Positions 32,205-38,999 of a stretch of 38,999 bases of DNA are shown here, in pieces. Position numbers and translations under genes: made by a program. This stretch comes from Thiogranum sp. (lineage in GTDB: Bacteria; Pseudomonadota; Gammaproteobacteria; DSM-19610): the NCBI GenBank assembly GCA_030148775.1, contig JASBST010000054.1, positions 1 to 38,999 of the forward strand. Reading direction: 5' to 3'. Below the pieces are notes generated by a model. The model saw only the letters and a program-made list of their open reading frames with translations. It was not told where the DNA came from and made no database searches. The stretch's first letter is position 1, and every line of letters starts with the position of its first letter.

Positions 32205-32236
32205 AAATTCCATACTGATTCAGTCAGGTATTGGCC

Positions 32237-33298
32237 TTGGAAGCACCGCCAAACAAAGCCTTGTCTTCGGCGCACCTGCAGTTGCAAACCCGCGTGCAGC
32301 ACAACTGTCATATCTCCGACGCCCGTTTCGCCAGCGATTTCACCATGTGCGTCTATCTTTTGAAGATGCGTGAATACTACCGCTGGGAAAAGGGCTACGG
32401 CTACGCCGATCCGCTGGTCCACGCGGAGGTGGGTGAATGGCTCACCCAGCGTGAACGGCTGTGGGAAACGCTGGAGGAAAAACCGTTCGTTCCGCTGGAG
32501 ATCGACGGCGGCGTCTACGATCCGTTCGACGCCGACGCCATCAATCAGGCGCTGGCCCCGCACCGGCTGGTCTATAGCGCCGGTTACGGCGCCAAGGCAA
32601 AGCCTCACTTTTATCTGGCGCGGCTGGAGCGTGATATCCACCATGACGGCTTCCGTATTTTCGTCTCCGCCGAGGAGTACGCGCGCGACCTCTCAGCGCC
32701 GCCGGCCATGTCGCAGAACGGGCGCATTTATATCCGCCGCGAATCGCTGCGACGGATGCTGTGGGAGCGCCTTGAGGAATGGCGCTGGAACCGGCTCGAT
32801 AACGCCATGGGGCGGGCGCTGCAGTGCTACGATTTCGAACAGGATCTGGATGGCGCGCTGGAGGCGATGACCGACACGGAAATTCGCGCCCTGATGTTGC
32901 ACGAAATCGGCGAGGCGGAGGCCGGTCGGGAACTGGGCGAGAGTTGGCGCGAAATGATCGACTCTTTCCCACGCTCGCGGCTGGAATTGATGGCGCGCGC
33001 AGTGCGCGACCATCTGGCGGATGCCCTGTCGACCCTGCCGGCACTACTGCAGGAACAACACGCCCCTTCTCTGCACTTTTATTTCGCCAACCTTTCGGGT
33101 ATGCGCAAACAAATATATCCGGCTCTTCATAAAGCCTACCAACACTGGGTAGAATACGACGACACCAGCCGGCTGGAGGCGCAGATTGCGCGCGGACGCG
33201 ATCACTGGCTACAGGTCGCGCGCGATTTGTTGCGGTTGCACGAGAGTCGCGTCAAGGATGCCTGGCAGAATATGGAAACGCTGATCGAAGAAAAATAG
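32237..33298 (+). CDS. Sfum_1244-like conserved protein
   Basis: A 353-residue soluble protein that I associate with the Sfum_1244 family, found in sulfur-metabolising proteobacteria; function unknown. Blocks include CHISDARFASDFTMCVYLLKMREYYRW, KGYGYADPLVHAEVGEWL, FVPLEIDGGVYDPFDADAIN, and the second-half ALMLHEIGEAEAGRELGESW. The last has an H-E-x-G-E pattern in a helix, which could bind a metal, though this is speculative. The TTG at 32237 has AGG eight bases upstream; a TTG at 32231 is the alternative and no ATG fits until deep inside the conserved region. It heads a four-gene plus-strand operon. Confidence 0.75.
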   Translation: MEAPPNKALSSAHLQLQTRVQHNCHISDARFASDFTMCVYLLKMREYYRWEKGYGYADPLVHAEVGEWLTQRERLWETLEEKPFVPLEIDGGVYDPFDADAINQALAPHRLVYSAGYGAKAKPHFYLARLERDIHHDGFRIFVSAEEYARDLSAPPAMSQNGRIYIRRESLRRMLWERLEEWRWNRLDNAMGRALQCYDFEQDLDGALEAMTDTEIRALMLHEIGEAEAGRELGESWREMIDSFPRSRLELMARAVRDHLADALSTLPALLQEQHAPSLHFYFANLSGMRKQIYPALHKAYQHWVEYDDTSRLEAQIARGRDHWLQVARDLLRLHESRVKDAWQNMETLIEEK

Positions 33299-33317
33299 TT
33301 GTAACGAACGCAGACCC

Positions 33318-33923
33318 ATGCCAGAGAACAAGCGCATCAGACCGCTACGCAGCATTGTCGAAATCAGGCCCGACACCTTCATCTTCGAGCAGCGCAATGC
33401 CCTGTCGGCCGAGGTCTGCCGCGAGGCCATCGAGCGCTTTGAACGAACCACCGAGGAACAGTACGAAGGCCGCATCGGCCAGATGGCCGACACCGATCGC
33501 AGCCTGAAAAAGACCACCGATCTGGTGGTCAGCGGCAAAGCGCATTGGAAGGACATCGACCAGGCGCTGTTTCGTTCGCTGGGACACGCCATTTTGGAGT
33601 TTCGCGAGACCTTCCCTTATTTCAAGGGCCCCTTCAAGGACATGGGCTACGGTCTGCAACGCTATCTGGCGGGTGAACACTATCACTGGCACATCGACGG
33701 CGGCAGCCATGACTTCAGCCAACGCCAGCTGGTGGCGATCTGGTACCTCAACGACGTACCCGGCCCGGGCGGCGAAACCGAGTTCCTGTTCCAGGATGTC
33801 AAAATAAAACCGGAACAGGGCAAGTTGCTGCTGTTCCCGCCTTTCTGGACCCACGAACACCGCGCTGTGACCTTGCATAGCGGCAGCAAATACATCGCCA
33901 CCACCTGGGTGGTATTCGCATGA
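33318..33923 (+). CDS. 2OG-Fe(II) oxygenase, prolyl-4-hydroxylase-like
   Basis: A 201-residue double-stranded beta-helix oxygenase. The iron facial triad is His125-x-Asp127 (YHWHIDGG) and a distal His (179 or 181 in FWTHEHRAV). Lys191 in SGSKYIATTW takes the 2-oxoglutarate anchoring place usually held by Lys or Arg. FLFQDVKIKPEQGKLLLFPP is the classic strand pair of P4H-type enzymes. The substrate is unknown. It lies 19 bases after the Sfum_1244-like gene and overlaps the GNAT gene by four bases (ATGA). Confidence 0.87.
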   Translation: MPENKRIRPLRSIVEIRPDTFIFEQRNALSAEVCREAIERFERTTEEQYEGRIGQMADTDRSLKKTTDLVVSGKAHWKDIDQALFRSLGHAILEFRETFPYFKGPFKDMGYGLQRYLAGEHYHWHIDGGSHDFSQRQLVAIWYLNDVPGPGGETEFLFQDVKIKPEQGKLLLFPPFWTHEHRAVTLHSGSKYIATTWVVFA

Positions 33924-34369
33924 ACGGGACTTCTCTTGCCGCCCGCGAGCCCCGCACCCCCGCTGAATGGGAACGCTATTACGCATTGCGCTGGCGGATT
34001 CTGCGCGCACCCTGGCAGCCCCAAGGACCGGACCGCGAAGAGGACGAGGAGCGCTGCATCCACCGGCTGCTGTGCGCCGAGGACGGCACCGCCCTGGCCG
34101 TGGGTCGTCTGCACCGGCTCGACCAGCATACCGGGCAGATCCGGTTCATGGCGGTCGCCGAGGGCCAGGAACGCAAGGGCTACGGTAGCGTGCTGCTGCA
34201 ATCGCTGGAACAGGCGGCGCGGGAAATTTCGCTGCAACAGCTGATTCTGCAGGCACGGGAACAGGCGGTGCCGTTCTATCGGCGGCGTGGCTACGAGCTG
34301 GTGGAAAAGAGCTTTTTACTGTTCGACGAAATCCAGCACTACCTGATGCGCAAACAATGGGGGTCTTGA
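33920..34369 (+). CDS. GNAT family N-acetyltransferase
   Basis: A 149-residue GNAT protein. Motif A, GQIRFMAVAEGQERKGYGSVLLQSL, holds the acetyl-CoA pyrophosphate loop (Q/R-x-x-G-x-G/A as RKGYGS). The C-terminal AVPFYRRRGYELVEKSF is the usual motif B end. Start ATG overlaps the oxygenase stop. The substrate is unknown; close coupling to an oxygenase and the following unknown gene suggests a shared target. Confidence 0.88.
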   Translation: MNGTSLAAREPRTPAEWERYYALRWRILRAPWQPQGPDREEDEERCIHRLLCAEDGTALAVGRLHRLDQHTGQIRFMAVAEGQERKGYGSVLLQSLEQAAREISLQQLILQAREQAVPFYRRRGYELVEKSFLLFDEIQHYLMRKQWGS

Positions 34370-34372
34370 GAC

Positions 34373-34777
34373 ATGGCCGATCTTTTCAGCGTCACCGCGC
34401 CGCTGGCCTTACGCTATCGTGACAGCGGCGAAAAACAGATCATGGTGGAGCGCCTGCCCTACGCCGATGGGCTGCTGTACCTGCCAACGTTCTGGACCGA
34501 CATGCCGCTACCGGAGGCGCTGCGCTATGTGCCCGGGCCGATCGAAGGCGACGGTCCGTGGAAGGTCGGCAATGCCATTGTCACTGTACTGGCGTGTCAC
34601 GGCACCGATGCCGAGCTGGCGACCGAGTTCAGCTACTGGCAGAGTCGCCTGATGGAGCTGGCCGACGACTATCCGTCGCGCGAACTGATCGAAAAGCTGA
34701 TGAAGACCCATGCCGCAGGCGTGGCCGGTATCGATATCTGTCATCCCGAATTCCGCAAGCAGTCCGGCAACGGTTAA
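34373..34777 (+). CDS. Conserved hypothetical protein (134 residues)
   Basis: A soluble protein starting MADLFSVTAPLALRYRDSGEKQIMVERL, with YLPTFWTDMPLPEALRYVPG, DGPWKVGNAIVTVLACHGTD and ATEFSYWQSRLMELADDY. No family recognised. One Cys-His pair (ACHGTD) and another late (DICHPEF) could bind a metal, but this is only a pattern. It follows the GNAT gene after three bases and ends the plus-strand operon; the next gene is convergent. Confidence 0.72.
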   Translation: MADLFSVTAPLALRYRDSGEKQIMVERLPYADGLLYLPTFWTDMPLPEALRYVPGPIEGDGPWKVGNAIVTVLACHGTDAELATEFSYWQSRLMELADDYPSRELIEKLMKTHAAGVAGIDICHPEFRKQSGNG

Positions 34778-34798
34778 GCGTCACTGCGTCTACCCGGC

Positions 34799-35119
34799 TC
34801 AGGCCACGATCTCTGTCAGCGTCATATCGCCGGAGGTGTCGACCACTACTTCCTCCACCGACGGCAGCCGGCTGAGTATATAACCGGACATCAGCAGTAC
34901 CATGCGTTTGTTCTCGGTGTGAAAAGCCCCCAAAATGCGGTCGGCGGCGATCTGGCAGCGCTGATAGAGATCCGGCTGCTCCACCCAGATCCGGCTCATC
35001 TGCCAGCCGCGCGACATGTCTTCGTCCATTTTCTGATAAAACTCCTGCGCCTCCTGCATCAGATGCTCGGGAACGTCGATGTCATAGGTTTGATCGTCTA
35101 TGGTCAGTTTCAATATCAT
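34799..35119 (-). CDS. Conserved hypothetical protein (106 residues)
   Basis: A small protein: an N-terminal beta-hairpin (ILKLTIDDQTYDIDVPEHLM), a helical middle (QEAQEFYQKMDEDMSRGWQMSRIWVEQPDLYQRCQIAADRI, shown only in part by its key residues Trp, Trp, Cys) and a C-terminal LSRLPSVEEVVVDTSGD. No known domain. It is divergent from the PiuC-like gene across 38 bases and convergent with the 134-residue gene. Confidence 0.68.
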   Translation of the reverse strand: MILKLTIDDQTYDIDVPEHLMQEAQEFYQKMDEDMSRGWQMSRIWVEQPDLYQRCQIAADRILGAFHTENKRMVLLMSGYILSRLPSVEEVVVDTSGDMTLTEIVA

Positions 35120-35157
35120 CGTACACTCTCTGTCTTGATCAATTGCAGGATATTCCC

Positions 35158-35832
35158 ATGCTGCTCGTCATTCCCGCAGTACTCGATAGCGCCAAACTGC
35201 AACAGGTGCGCTCGCTGCTCGACCAGGGTAACTTTGTCGATGGCCGGCTTTCGGCCGGCGAAAGCGCCCGTCGCGTCAAACGCAACGAAGAACTCGAATC
35301 CGGCTTTCGGCACCTGCAGCAGCTGAATAATCTGGTGATGGGCTCGCTGGTGCAACACCCACTCTACCAGGCCGCGGCCATGCCCTATCGGGTCGCCACG
35401 CCCTATTATGTCCGTTACACCCAGGGTATGGGCTACGGTGACCATGTCGACGATCCGGTCATGGGGCCGCCCGGCGGACAGTATCGCTCCGATATATCCA
35501 CCAGCGTGTTTCTCAATCCGCCCGATCAGTATGAAGGCGGCGAGCTGGTAATCCGGACACCGTTCGGTCAGCAGTCGATCAAGCTGGCCGCCGGCGATGC
35601 GGTCCTCTATCCCTCATCGAGCCTGCATCATATCAACGAAGTCACGCAGGGCGTGCGCCTGGTGGCGGTCACCTGGGCGCAAAGCATGCTGCGCGATCCG
35701 CAGCAACGCGAGTTGCTGTTTCAGTTGTACCAGGCGCGGGAAGCACTGCGTACTTCACAGCCTGAAAGCGACGCCAGCACCCGGGTCGATCAGGTTTACG
35801 TCAATCTGACGCGCATGTGGTCCGAACTCTGA
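35158..35832 (+). CDS. Fe(II)-dependent dioxygenase, PiuC/YbiX family
   Basis: A 224-residue 2OG-Fe(II) oxygenase of the PiuC/YbiX type. The triad is His96-x-Asp98 (GYGDHVDDP) with a distal His157/158 (SSSLHHINEV); Arg167 (GVRLVAVTW) anchors 2-oxoglutarate. The blocks STSVFLNPPDQYEGGELVI and RDPQQRELLFQLYQA are family signatures. PiuC often accompanies TonB siderophore receptors; none is visible here. The ATG at 35158 has AGGA about 8 bases upstream; a TTG at 35143 would place that site inside the gene. An intrinsic terminator at 35857-35887 follows, active mainly on the opposite strand. Confidence 0.88.
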   Translation: MLLVIPAVLDSAKLQQVRSLLDQGNFVDGRLSAGESARRVKRNEELESGFRHLQQLNNLVMGSLVQHPLYQAAAMPYRVATPYYVRYTQGMGYGDHVDDPVMGPPGGQYRSDISTSVFLNPPDQYEGGELVIRTPFGQQSIKLAAGDAVLYPSSSLHHINEVTQGVRLVAVTWAQSMLRDPQQRELLFQLYQAREALRTSQPESDASTRVDQVYVNLTRMWSEL

Positions 35833-35907: not shown

Positions 35908-36111
35908 TTAGCGGTGGGAGCCTCGTTCTTCGTGCGCCACGTCAACCAGCTTGATCGCCAGATCGTTGTATTCCTGGCGGTAGTTGTTTAACGCATGTCC
36001 TGCTTCGGGCGCAAAGTATTCCTGCGCCGAGACGCCGTGTTCCTGTTCATAGGCAATGAACTTCTTCTGCATCTCGATCATTTTCTTGATCATCTCTTGC
36101 TTGTCGCTCAT
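35908..36111 (-). CDS. Small conserved protein of unknown function (67 residues)
   Basis: A 67-residue charged helical protein: MSDKQEMIKKMIEMQKKFIAYEQ, then SAQEYFAPEAGHALNNYRQEY and IKLVDVAHEERGSHR. No cysteines, no known domain. TTTGGAGG lies 7 bases before the ATG, an excellent ribosome binding site, and an intrinsic terminator follows, so it is a well-expressed unit. It is next to the DsrC-like gene and co-oriented with it. I believe similar small proteins accompany dsr-type genes in other sulfur oxidisers, but this is from memory. Confidence 0.75.
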   Translation of the reverse strand: MSDKQEMIKKMIEMQKKFIAYEQEHGVSAQEYFAPEAGHALNNYRQEYNDLAIKLVDVAHEERGSHR

Positions 36112-36221: not shown

Positions 36222-36560
36222 TCAATAGCCACCCTTGCGGGTACTCGGCGGCAGACCGGCGATTTTGCGGCCCTGCTTGCTGGGCATGCCCGGGAACAGG
36301 TTGTACATGTCCTTGCTGGTCGGCTTGGTACCCCATTTCTTCGCCATGTCCTTGAGAATCGTGCGCTCGTTGGGCTCGACGCCGCCGCTGTTATAGTGTT
36401 GATCGCGCAGATAATGAACGATATCCCAATGCTGCTCGGTCAACTCCAGTTTGTCGGCAGCAGCAATGGCCTGGGCGACCGCTTCGCTCCAGTCCTCGGT
36501 ATTCACCAGGTAACCGGTTTCAGTGGTTTCGATGGTTTTGCCGTCGACTTCAAGTGCCAT
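36222..36560 (-). CDS. DsrC/TusE-family protein lacking both redox cysteines (RspA type)
   Basis: A 112-residue protein of the DsrC/TusE/DsvC fold: LEVDGKTIETTETGYLVNTEDW, LELTEQHWDIVHYLRDQHY, and the C-terminal NLFPGMPSKQGRKIAGLPP. DsrC carries two sulfur-relay cysteines (KQACRFAGLP and the penultimate GC-V); TusE keeps the last one. Here the whole protein contains no cysteine: Arg98 takes the upper site and the tail ends RKGGY. Cysteine-free homologues have been named RspA and proposed to be regulatory. It cannot carry persulfide. ATGGAGAAAGCT provides the ribosome binding site. It is the last gene of the tauD-cas6 operon. Confidence 0.88.
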   Translation of the reverse strand: MALEVDGKTIETTETGYLVNTEDWSEAVAQAIAAADKLELTEQHWDIVHYLRDQHYNSGGVEPNERTILKDMAKKWGTKPTSKDMYNLFPGMPSKQGRKIAGLPPSTRKGGY

Positions 36561-36603
36561 AGCTTTCTCCATAGTAATTAAAAGATTAGAGTAAGTTATT
36601 AAA

Positions 36604-36627
36604 CCTGATCCTGGTAACAGTTTCAGG
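36604..36627 (-). terminator. Hairpin between the Cas6-like and DsrC-like genes
   Basis: On the minus strand CCTGA...TCAGG with an inner CTG/CAG pair is followed by TTTAAT. The stem is weak, so it may be a partial terminator or processing site that changes the ratio of the two products. Confidence 0.35.
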
Positions 36628-36642
36628 TCGATTTCAAAAAAT

Positions 36643-37353
36643 CTAGGTTTTTTTGTCGCTCGTCGCCTGGTGCACGGCGCTGATCCCCTTATGCGGAATG
36701 AACAGGCCGCAGCCGAGCAGGCGGTGGTCCCCCAGCGCCTGTTGCTGGACTTTGATCGCGTCGGCCGGTTCCAGATCCGCCAGCATGACGCTGCGGGTGT
36801 GGAGATCGCCGTCGGGATGGCGCAGGGCATGGGCGCGCCCACACAGCATTTTCCGCACCCGCAGTCCCAGCGTCCTCAGCAACTGTTCCGCCGCCGCCGC
36901 CATGAAGGCCTCCTCATCGGTCCGGTCGATACCCGCCGGTACCACCACATAACGGGCGAACTGGGTGGATAGCGTGCTGAATAATTTCACTTTGGCTTCG
37001 CCGATCGCTAGTCGATAACCGTCGATATCCAGGGTTTGGCCGCTCAGCGCGCGCGCATCCTCGATCCGCGCCTTGGGCATACGCAGCGTCATGCGCGAGC
37101 GCCGCGACAAATGCAGCAATGCGCCGCCATCATCCTCGGGGCGAATCCAGCCGTTGCCCGATTCGGCGCCGTGGATCAGGTGTATCCCCACCCCCGGTTC
37201 GTCTTCGATCCAGGGCAACGCGCTACGGATCGCGCCGGACAACGCGAACGCGTGATCCAGGGGCAGGCATTTGCAGCGAATCTGATAGACCAGATCCACC
37301 ACCTCGTCCGACACCTGCGAAACACTCTCGTCTTTATCCTCTTCCCAGAACAT
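36643..37353 (-). CDS. Cas6/Cmx6-like RAMP-fold protein, outside any CRISPR locus
   Basis: A 236-residue protein resembling the type I-MYXAN Cas6/Cmx6 family: VDLVYQIRCKCLPLDHAFALSG with SALPWIEDEPGVGIHLIHGA near the N-terminus, SRMTLRMPKARI in the middle, and the terminal glycine-rich RAMP loop LLGCGLFIPHKGI (212-224) after VQQQALGDHR. Cas6 proteins cut CRISPR precursor RNA within repeats. Candidate catalytic residues (His34, His58, His61, Tyr23) are present but unproven. No array and no cas3, cas5, cas7 or cas8 gene occurs in the window. It sits between a small protein gene and the DsrC-like gene, so a CRISPR-independent RNA-binding or RNA-cutting role is likely. The name rests on remembered family patterns, not a search. 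Confidence 0.72.
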   Translation of the reverse strand: MFWEEDKDESVSQVSDEVVDLVYQIRCKCLPLDHAFALSGAIRSALPWIEDEPGVGIHLIHGAESGNGWIRPEDDGGALLHLSRRSRMTLRMPKARIEDARALSGQTLDIDGYRLAIGEAKVKLFSTLSTQFARYVVVPAGIDRTDEEAFMAAAAEQLLRTLGLRVRKMLCGRAHALRHPDGDLHTRSVMLADLEPADAIKVQQQALGDHRLLGCGLFIPHKGISAVHQATSDKKT

Positions 37354-37376
37354 CTGATCCTCGCGGTGACCGGCGC

Positions 37377-37571
37377 TCAGCGTTTGGACGCCGCCGCAAA
37401 CGCGGCTTCAAGGCGATCCTCCCAGCTTTCCGGGGTATCCGGAAACGGCGGTCGTACGTCCATTTGAAAAAACAACTCACCGCCGCGGGCTTTTTCCTCG
37501 ACGACCTGCCTCAGTTCGTCGAAAGACTGTAATTCGTGATGCTGTAACAAAATTTCACTTAAACACAACAT
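37377..37571 (-). CDS. Small protein of unknown function between tauD-like and cas6-like genes
   Basis: About 64 residues: MLCLSEILLQHHELQSFDELRQ, EEKARGGELFFQMDVRPPFPD and WEDRLEAAFAAASKR, mostly helical. No family recognised. AGGTGAG lies six bases before the ATG at 37571; a GTG at 37580 that overlaps the upstream stop (GTGA) is the alternative. Tight spacing (23 bases to the Cas6-like gene) places it in the operon. Confidence 0.65.
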   Translation of the reverse strand: MLCLSEILLQHHELQSFDELRQVVEEKARGGELFFQMDVRPPFPDTPESWEDRLEAAFAAASKR

Positions 37572-37576
37572 GTGTC

Positions 37577-38506
37577 TCACCTGTCCGGGTCGATGTCGCT
37601 GATACGATCGAAATAACGTGCACGGTACAACAGCCGGGCTTCGCCGCCATCGCCTTTCCGGTCAAACGCGCTGCGACAATGCAACACGTTGTTGCTGATG
37701 AATCCCTGTCCGGCTTCCAGTCGGTGGCGAAATATATAGGGCGAATCCTGTTGAAACAAGTTCAGCAGACTCTGCGCCGCCGCCCGCGTGACGACATCGT
37801 CCTTCCAGACGATGTTGCGCGTCCGCGCCGAATAGCGCATATGCAAATGACCGCTGGCGCTGAGCGAGAAAACCGGACCGGTCTGCTCGCCGCGCAATCG
37901 CACGCCATCCTGGATATTGGCCGGAATGCTCATGGCGTCAGCGGCCATCAGCGCGCGGATGTAGTCCGGGTTTTCATCGCGCAGCCGAATATAGGCGATT
38001 TCGTGATCGAGAATCGCATTCTCCCCGCCCCGCCCGGCCGGCCGCACGCATTGCAGAATCACGCCATGCAACTGGTTCTCGGCGCTATTATAATAGCCGT
38101 CGGTGTGCCAATTGAGACGTTTGTCGGTGTAGGGGATATATTCGCCGGCGCTGCGTTGCGCCGCCACCCGTAGCGAGCTGATACCGTCTTCATCGGCGCA
38201 CAGGTTGCTGTCGAGCCGCCGCAAACCGAGCTGCCGGCCCAACGCCCGCAGCATCGCCTTGTCGTCCGCCGCGCCGGGCGGCAGCTGATAGATGGCGAAA
38301 TTGGCACGCCCGACGGCGGCCAGTATCGCCACACGTTCGGCGCGGGTAAGCGCGAATCCGTCCTCAATCGAGACTGTAATTTCATCCAGGGTGTGGGGAT
38401 ATGCCGACAGTTTCTGTGTCCGCCAGGCGTCGTACGAAGCGGCGCATTCCGGGTTGAACGGACTGCGCGCAAACACGTCGTCTTGTAGGGGTGCCAGGCT
38501 GACCAT
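37577..38506 (-). CDS. TauD/TfdA-family 2OG-Fe(II) dioxygenase
   Basis: A 309-residue dioxygenase with the iron triad His134-x-Asp136 (LNWHTDGYYN) and distal His276 (ISNNVLHCRSAF); an Arg in RLLYRARYF near residue 292 anchors 2-oxoglutarate. Other family blocks are NAILDHEIAYIRLRDENPDY and YSARTRNIVWKDD. TauD proteins release sulfite from taurine, but related members hydroxylate many substrates and a sulfonate substrate cannot be assumed. It is the first gene of the leftward tauD-small-cas6-dsrC-like operon; a TAAACT box about 50 bases upstream may be its -10. Confidence 0.88.
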   Translation of the reverse strand: MVSLAPLQDDVFARSPFNPECAASYDAWRTQKLSAYPHTLDEITVSIEDGFALTRAERVAILAAVGRANFAIYQLPPGAADDKAMLRALGRQLGLRRLDSNLCADEDGISSLRVAAQRSAGEYIPYTDKRLNWHTDGYYNSAENQLHGVILQCVRPAGRGGENAILDHEIAYIRLRDENPDYIRALMAADAMSIPANIQDGVRLRGEQTGPVFSLSASGHLHMRYSARTRNIVWKDDVVTRAAAQSLLNLFQQDSPYIFRHRLEAGQGFISNNVLHCRSAFDRKGDGGEARLLYRARYFDRISDIDPDR

Positions 38507-38725: not shown

Positions 38726-38926
38726 CCGCTGAAGACGCATTAAACGCCCTATCCCCAAAGAGATAGTGTTGCCAAGGGCGTACACCCCAAGGGTAGGGTT
38801 CTCGAACCGGTGTCCGCCACCTAGACTTCGGGGTGCCCAATGAGGGGGTTCCTCGTATCGGCCCTGCGGGTACTGATACGGGAACCTCGGCTCATCAATT
38901 TGATGATGTACCGAATTTTTAGTTTT
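38726..38926 (+). ncRNA. Candidate structured RNA or terminated leader, unassigned
   Basis: The approximately 200-base stretch has no plausible ORF but dense pairing. P1: ACGCCCT (38744-38750) with AGGGCGT (38775-38781), holding inner TATC/GATA. P2: CACCCC (38783-38788) with GGGGTG (38830-38835), enclosing GGTT-CTCG-AACC. P3: ATGAG, GGTTCC and CGTATC (38840-38859) with GATACG, GGAACC and CTCAT (38875-38895). A final hairpin TCATCAA/TTGATGA closed by TCGG/CCGA (38887-38914) is followed by TTTTTAGTTTT, a terminator. CTCAT is shared by P3 and the terminator, so the two compete. I could not match it to tmRNA, RNase P, SRP, 6S or a known riboswitch. It is either a small RNA or the leader of a gene beyond the window. 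Confidence 0.55.
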
Positions 38927-38999
38927 ACGGGTCTACGCGGATTAGTGTGGGTCATTTTTGGTGAATTTCGGTAGTGGCGGCAAGAAAGCGGCGATGATT

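Follow-up and report, generated by a model that had tools for sequence, protein, structure and literature searches.

A stand-alone Cas6-family gene linked to the reverse Dsr system of Gammaproteobacteria

What does a gene for a Cas6-family protein do beside genes of sulfur metabolism, with no CRISPR array at hand? The question is raised by the window analysed here, which is one whole contig (C22, 38,999 bases) of the 3.1-Mb Thiogranum genome G000 (completeness 87%). An initial annotation had described, at 36222..38506, a set of four genes (for a TauD-like, a small, a Cas6-like and a cysteine-free DsrC-like protein), and had proposed that the Cas6 homologue was recruited outside CRISPR to bind or cut cellular RNA in the control of sulfur oxidation, with the DsrC homologue as its partner. 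The gene set stands: each of the four genes lies on the minus strand and the family assignments hold. They form part of a minus-strand run going from 38506 down to 35908, which includes a fifth gene:

37577..38506, minus strand: TauD-like Fe(II)/2-oxoglutarate (2OG) oxygenase (dsrQ-type), 309 amino acids (PF02668, E 3.8e-19)
37377..37571, minus strand: small conserved protein of about 64 amino acids, present in relatives, with no family match
36643..37353, minus strand: Cas6-family protein without CRISPR neighbours, 236 amino acids (PF09559, TIGR02807)
36222..36560, minus strand: cysteine-free DsrC paralogue, 112 amino acids, C-terminus RKGGY (PF04358, 112.1 bits)
35908..36111, minus strand: orf67, a conserved 67-amino-acid protein 3' of the DsrC paralogue, kept in relatives

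The Cas6-like gene is linked to sulfur oxidation

The Cas6-like gene was searched for, using a profile of 24 proteins (A1), in a class sample of 370 gammaproteobacterial genomes at least 85% complete, none of which was removed ahead of the counts. It was present in 124 of them, always as a single copy (in G266 the gene is in two pieces). The number of genomes with a strong dsrA (best E <1e-50) was 122, made up of 117 over the family cut-off and 5 with fragments. Both genes occurred together in 117 genomes, the Cas6-like gene alone in 7, dsrA alone in 5 and neither in 241, so that the gene is carried by 117/122 genomes with a strong dsrA versus 7/248 without one (Fisher p 1.6e-80, without correction for shared ancestry). 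The link to sulfur oxidation that had been proposed is thus very strong, and the Cas6-like protein is almost certainly part of the reverse-Dsr system.

Among the seven genomes having the Cas6-like gene and no strong dsrA, two, G000 and G083, carry part of dsrB at a contig edge. In the window genome, only some 490 bp of C22 remain upstream of the TauD-like gene, the contig breaking off where dsrA stands in relatives, and contig C24 opens inside dsrB (E 5.6e-85); therefore, dsrA of this genome falls in an assembly gap. Beyond dsrB, C24 carries two DsrE/F-family genes, DsrH, a DsrC ending CKYSGLPKPTGCV and a nitrate-reductase-gamma family gene at the dsrM position. In G105, G137, G285 and G314 the contig ends in or shortly past the module, and the missing dsrA may also be an assembly gap; G299 remains an exception. 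As for the five genomes with dsrA alone, dsrA starts less than 2 kb from the contig end in G120, G133 and G213, and in G133 the TauD and small genes run up to that end. No module was seen by dsrA in G217 (3.8 kb upstream seen) or G347 (1.75 kb upstream), which remain exceptions. Note that a further copy of dsrA lies on a different contig in some genomes, for example G157 (C113, C10) and G003 (C35, C5), and G347 may display only such a second copy.

A phylum-wide sample of 299 genomes gave PF09559 matches in four, all Gammaproteobacteria: G570, G591 and G607, where the Cas6-like gene is divergent from dsrA, and G000 itself. None of the 33 dsrA genomes (over cut-off) of other classes in this draw had a PF09559 match, and the association is therefore a trait of the Gammaproteobacteria rather than of Dsr at large.

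The nearest named relatives of the window's Cas6-like gene are in Thiogranum metagenome-assembled genomes (MAGs), and each of the 17 genus genomes in the first relatives search had exactly one copy. Scanning one genome per species gave 316 encoding loci, of which the best 80 (L037-L116) were kept for locus counts; their titles are gammaproteobacterial groups, except for two ('Bacterium' and 'Proteobacteria bacterium'). Named carriers include Allochromatium, Thiocystis, Thiothrix, Parabeggiatoa and Thioalkalivibrio. The order TauD, small, Cas6-like, DsrC-like, orf67 recurs in the relatives' neighbourhoods, barring contig ends and some divergent members, so the gene set of the window is not a chance grouping. 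Among the best 80 loci, incomplete ones counted, TauD was present in 67, the small protein in 74, orf67 in 56, DsrA in 60 and DsrB in 51. In 60/80, dsrA starts at most 3.5 kb from the Cas6-like gene, on the opposite strand and facing away; since 12 of the 20 loci without dsrA have less than 4 kb of upstream sequence, this corresponds to 60/68 loci with enough flank. At L021:4061-4774 and in 15/80 loci, the small gene and the Cas6-like gene are separated by a gene of about 237 codons with no Pfam match.

Moreover, four genomes of only 1.0-1.1 Mb (L117, L118, L121, L122) keep TauD, small, Cas6-like, DsrC-like and orf67 next to dsrA-dsrB, and this retention in reduced genomes argues for a needed function. 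A different setting was seen in L119 and L120, two genomes of 1.4-1.5 Mb, where the Cas6-like gene has rnc (RNase III), era and recO as neighbours (names assigned by eye) and stands without the other module genes.

Since genes that adjoin an operon can be co-inherited within a class, the Cas6-like gene might merely travel with the dsr region and have no functional link to it. However, the contrast of 117/122 with 7/248, the retention in the 1.0-1.1 Mb genomes, and the fact that the dsrA-bearing G119 and G321 keep the gene about 41 kb and more than 500 kb away from dsrA, make this barely credible.

A Cas6 protein independent of CRISPR-Cas

The assignment of the window protein to the Cas6 family is firm, as judged by profile comparison: it matches Pfam Cas6 PF09559 (E 3.1e-60, 203.9 bits, cut-off 26.7) and NCBIfam TIGR02807 cas6_cmx6 (118.2 bits, cut-off 98.85), PADLOC Cas6 models (down to 8.5e-58) and, in a profile match, the Cas6 chain of PDB 8fcj (E 3.4e-17). 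The initial annotation had pointed to the conservation of the catalytic histidine as a check. H34, the putative catalytic residue, is invariant in 110/110 distinct Cas6-like sequences, as are R85, R91, G172 and G216, and the rest of the glycine loop is nearly so (G214 in 109/110, C215 in 107/110). H34 and the glycine loop are shared with the Cas6 of two cyanobacterial plasmid CRISPR loci, which stand beside cas3 and cmx8. Type I-MYXAN / I-B Cas6 proteins such as the Nostoc sp. CENA543 plasmid copy and chain B of PDB 8fcj belong to the same profile family, with a GCG loop in common and, in the cyanobacterial CRISPR copies, the DH histidine; the window-type protein is nonetheless just 24-29% identical to the six plasmid Cas6 copies found, and the 8fcj chain has an Asn at the position aligned to H34. 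Most window-type members also differ from the I-MYXAN Cas6 by W3 and SGNGW (65-69), which are missing from the two CRISPR-borne cyanobacterial copies, and no cas3, cmx8, cas7, cas5 or cas1 homologue or array stands beside them. Comparison of seven Cas6-like gene pairs gave dN/dS of 0.03-0.21 (dS >2 in two pairs), showing that the gene is under purifying selection.

W3 and SGNGW could mark a new contact surface, and together with the linkage to a DsrC paralogue and an oxygenase this would suit a Cas6 fold turned to a protein-protein role that touches no RNA, for example in maturing or regulating DsrAB, DsrC or sulfur transfer. We find this unlikely, given that the features expected of a Cas6 RNA site (H34, R85, R91 and the GxG loop) are among the few unvarying positions.

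As had been noted for the 39 kb, the window contains no CRISPR array (sought as at least three exact 20-mers with a spacing of 45-90) and nothing homologous to the I-MYXAN cas3, cmx8, cas7, cas5 or cas1 queries. No cas1 was found anywhere in the 87%-complete G000, where outside the window cas1 alone was searched for. The same cas3, cmx8, cas7, cas5 and cas1 queries found no homologue in 104 neighbourhoods including the window (1.16 Mb, many cut by contig ends and some overlapping; other cas families were not sought), while the positive control gave 21 matches; of the four cas1 queries, the one taken from L035 is possibly not a true Cas1. The sole neighbourhood flagged for an array, L073, proved to hold a 55-nt tandem repeat. 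In the class sample, cas1 was present in 56/124 carriers of the Cas6-like gene versus 88/246 non-carriers (odds ratio 1.5, p 0.09), which is no significant association, and 68/124 carriers have no cas1, among them the single-contig genomes G009 and G038. Thus, the Cas6-like gene does not depend on CRISPR-Cas. Recruitment outside CRISPR, as the initial annotation had it, agrees with the family cut-offs passed and with the lack of a significant cas1 link, and neither of the outcomes that would have spoken against it, failure of the Cas6 homology or cas genes elsewhere in the genome, was seen, the latter for cas1 in G000.

Could the protein still act in trans on CRISPR arrays elsewhere in the genome, or be a CRISPR remnant? 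It does pass the cut-off for the I-MYXAN Cas6 (TIGR02807), and cas1 is slightly commoner in carriers. Nevertheless, the many carriers without cas1, the neighbourhoods without a queried cas homologue and the low dN/dS make this highly improbable. Note that a PF09559-type Cas6 with no annotated cas neighbours within 6 kb was also seen on a Gloeobacter morelensis plasmid (L142, 5965-6756), near PAPS-reductase-family and cupin genes, which is possibly a second CRISPR-free Cas6 setting.

The DsrC paralogue and the other partner genes

The DsrC-like protein matches PF04358 at E 2.3e-32, and TIGR03342 is also over its cut-off. The window copy has no cysteine at all, so that both arm cysteines are absent, and the C-terminal RKGGY is invariant in 18/18 copies. 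The paralogue is a regular neighbour: a DsrC-like protein is encoded within 1.5 kb of the Cas6-like gene in 88 loci, and 88/88 of these proteins end in KGG or KGGY, with a cysteine in the last 25 residues in 4/88. TusE has a penultimate cysteine where the window paralogue ends in RKGGY, and the NF008562 TusE score of the latter (84.5 bits) is below the cut-off of 191. Cysteine-free DsrC paralogues are already known, and RspA is presumably a further name belonging with the DsrC/TusE family. The window genome encodes many DsrC paralogues, with ten family matches, on C24, C111, C91, C22, C77, C75 (two), C25 and C39 (two).

The sulfur carrier DsrC belongs to the same family, and its two C-terminal arm cysteines, according to passages of PMC3397948, act in sulfur transfer; since the paralogue is without them, it presumably cannot carry sulfur. 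The same source, in its remarks on the family, has DsrC/TusE taking part in E. coli tRNA thiolation, which raises the idea that the Cas6-like protein has tRNA or some other stable RNA as its target, for instance in a sulfur-responsive modification or cleavage that echoes TusE-MnmA 2-thiouridine synthesis. The paralogue, however, offers no cysteine for sulfur, and the gene tracks dsrA, being found in just 7/248 genomes without a strong dsrA. We therefore regard this idea as improbable.

The TauD-like protein of the window carries the motifs HTD and NNVLH; among 84 copies, including the window and other-class loci, HxD is present in 78 and the distal NNxLH in 80. A TauD-like gene divergent from dsrA was named dsrQ by Lenk et al. 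2012, according to passages of PMC7596348, where sulfite release from sulfonates is given as a speculated role. The module gene matches dsrQ in position and orientation, being in relatives divergent from and adjacent to dsrA; those passages mention neither a Cas6 homologue nor a DsrC paralogue. The small protein has no Pfam, NCBIfam or PADLOC match, and its shortened consensus over 94 copies reads ML.LSE...GE.ff.mDv.Ppf.DTPe.WEdrlEaaF. Its open reading frame in the window is listed as 37377-37580, with a GTG start at 37580, and relatives use an ATG near 37571. For orf67, no Pfam or NCBIfam match was above cut-off.

Among the six first fetched dsrA loci of other classes, four have the dsrQ-small pair in divergent orientation to dsrA and no detectable Cas6-like gene, and the pair is followed in three of them by a siroheme synthase gene of the CysG type. 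Thus, dsrQ-small is the broader association, to which the Cas6-like gene and the DsrC paralogue are an addition of the Gammaproteobacteria. In L168, L170 and L171, from other proteobacterial classes, a second protein of about 70 amino acids and the CysG-type gene come after dsrQ and small.

On the other side of the module, the window region 32231-35832 encodes two more Fe/2OG oxygenases (33318-33923 and 35143-35832), so that three 2OG oxygenases share one dsr neighbourhood. The second of them is a frequent outer neighbour of the module:

35143..35832, plus strand: PKHD-type Fe/2OG oxygenase (PF13640, PF18331), in 56/80 loci

In the 1.1-Mb genome L117 the module is also adjoined by the first kind of 2OG oxygenase, together with a 106-amino-acid protein. 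Further genes near the module in the window are those for a DUF6866 protein (32231-33298), a GNAT acetyltransferase and unclassified proteins (34373-34777 and 34799-35119).

Candidate RNA targets and a proposed role

Our best explanation, to which we give about even weight, is that the Cas6-like protein is an ex-CRISPR RNA-processing protein co-opted by the gammaproteobacterial reverse Dsr, likely to bind and perhaps to cut dsr transcripts, with the DsrC paralogue as its partner. By analogy with what is known of the Cas6 family, and because its site is intact, the protein probably binds RNA, and the chance that it also cuts RNA we would put at evens. That the target is a dsr transcript, a possibility to which we would grant somewhat less than that, is suggested by the co-occurrence, the neighbourhood and the candidate hairpins described below, and it is the weakest step. 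In the mechanism that we propose, the protein would bind a hairpin in the dsr-operon transcript and probably cut beside it, as Cas6 does at the CRISPR repeat; this would control how much of the Dsr proteins is made, or in what ratio, and the paralogue, unable to carry sulfur, would tie the activity to the state of the DsrAB/DsrC machinery. The candidate substrates would be hairpins in the dsrA leader and a hairpin between dsrC and dsrM.

Both the first leader hairpin and an 88-base element upstream of dsrA are within the window:

38747..38834, plus strand: dsrA upstream element, ungapped, scored against resampled controls
38840..38895, plus strand: hairpin A, presumed dsrA leader RNA, with covariation in 13 genus members
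38931..38999, no strand: contig end, the final 70 or so bases unlike relatives in the intergenic comparison and single-copy in the genome

The two dsrA-leader hairpins have 88.0% of cells paired across the 13 genus members. They show 13 two-sided changes, a number reached by 0/500 shuffles; two weaker covariation measures were reached by 13/500 and, for the 25 further pair types, by 37/500. In 53 loci of the class, the hairpin 3' of dsrC had a mean best energy of -23.8 versus -13.9 kcal/mol when shuffled, and in 5 loci of other classes -15.3 versus -12.7 kcal/mol (Mann-Whitney p 0.002 between class and other classes, with non-independent data and n=5 in the latter); 20 further loci, when fetched, gave one usable dsrC. 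This dsrC-dsrM spacer hairpin, seen for example at L157:2102-2180 and in 52 other loci, is found in most dsr operons of the class examined. Given the non-independent data, the n of 5 and a strong hairpin in one other-class locus (L191), we treat it as a lead only, and not as a Cas6-linked feature. A hairpin between the Cas6-like and DsrC-like genes, seen in several genus members and absent in others, was dropped. No Rfam family reached its gathering score in 8 loci, and the window stretch gave a single match, far below it. Finally, in Allochromatium vinosum grown on sulfide, the transcripts of dsrEFH and dsrC are significantly higher than that of dsrA (as given in a passage of PMC3397948), a pattern that mRNA processing could give.

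The protein might instead bind RNA and act by occupancy only, as a hairpin-binding repressor or activator of dsr translation that has lost cutting. In the window genus a leader hairpin precedes the Shine-Dalgarno of dsrA by a few tens of bases, the G loop and basic residues are invariant, and domesticated nucleases may lose their cutting. Since H34 is invariant in all 110 sequences, which is unexpected if catalysis is gone, we consider occupancy alone rather unlikely.

Several observations weigh against our proposal that the Cas6-like protein acts on dsr transcripts. H58 is kept in 105/110 Cas6-like sequences and lost in 5/110. Eight loci with at least 4 kb of upstream sequence have no dsrA (L061, L084, L088, L092, L105, L107, L108 and L115); adjacency to dsrA is therefore usual, not universal. 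In G119 and G321 the gene lies beside rnc, with the other module genes undetected nearby. As for the leader RNA, the structure tested was drawn by eye from L044, RNAalifold alone recovers just the second hairpin, and hairpin A is missing in L041. Model R1, built on the second hairpin, was strong in 9/19 genomes, all beside dsrA of the window genus, and its matches elsewhere were at chance level, so R1 was rejected as a shared Cas6 substrate. The dsrC hairpin varies in sequence between genera and often precedes a T run, as intrinsic terminators do, and it is strong in L191, one of the five usable other-class loci, which has no Cas6-like gene. Moreover, dsrC has an extra promoter of its own, according to a passage of PMC3368242, which could explain the higher dsrC transcript.

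The dsrA upstream element is a separate matter. In the window it consists of the palindrome CTATCCCCAAAGAGATAG, CACCCCAAGGGTAGGG and the -10-like CCTAGACT; across dsrA upstream regions the ungapped parts are the palindrome TATCCCnnnnGGGATA, CACCCCATGGGTAGG and CCTAGACTT. Scores above the maximum of 177 Markov-resampled controls were obtained for 55/59 dsrA upstream regions, 27 of which had built the model, so that 28 scoring regions are independent, some of them weak. The element was found once per genome in 8/8 genomes, and the reversed pattern 0 times. It was dropped as a structured RNA, as the three parts keep a fixed spacing in most loci, and for this reason it is read as promoter or operator DNA, single-copy and with fixed spacing across many Gammaproteobacteria. 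In a second scan it was over threshold in 9/12 further loci of the class, in 0/4 reduced genomes, in 0/16 other-class loci whose upstream sequence was long enough (as it was not in 9 more) and in 0/3 divergent loci (L144-L146), two of which score slightly above their own controls. Therefore, the element does not simply follow the Cas6-like gene.

How much of this was known? The initial annotation had claimed that no system of this make-up was described, and this stands in part. The Cas6 family and dsrQ were already known, and cas6 appears in the Figure 3B legend of PMC10989796 (2023), which belongs to a map of dsr genes in mangrove MAGs. That map covers dissimilatory sulfur genes of MAGs including Chromatiales and Burkholderiales, and its cas6 is probably a window-type gene; as far as the main text of that source goes, cas6 occurs once, in the legend, CRISPR never, and neither function nor conservation is discussed. 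Within the open-licence literature, no paper was found discussing Cas6 with Dsr, the other Cas6 passages there concerning ordinary CRISPR. Thus the neighbourhood has already been drawn, and it is the class-wide tie, the loss of CRISPR and the function that were not found in open-licence print, as far as those passages extend.

CRISPR proteins that serve cell physiology are known from Myxococcus dev (DevTRS) and from other re-used CRISPR proteins. The present case differs in that one stand-alone Cas6 is tied to an energy-metabolism pathway across a class, and it is a widespread case of a CRISPR protein in other use. In a bolder version, which we offer tentatively, a stand-alone Cas6 would be standard and possibly essential in reverse Dsr, and its cutting of mRNA hairpins, gated by a cysteine-free DsrC mimic, would couple relay load to enzyme synthesis. 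We know of no described counterpart of such gated RNA processing. For annotation, a label of 'type I-MYXAN Cas6' that rests on this Cas6-like gene does not imply that the genome has a CRISPR system of that type. Purple sulfur bacteria and many colourless ones use reverse Dsr to oxidise sulfur, and the presence of the gene in 117/122 dsrA genomes and its retention in 1-Mb genomes imply a pathway component that has been drawn but not studied. This hints at an unstudied RNA-handling step in sulfur oxidation, by which RNA processing would have been brought into an energy pathway, and the hypothesis is testable in culturable sulfur oxidisers.

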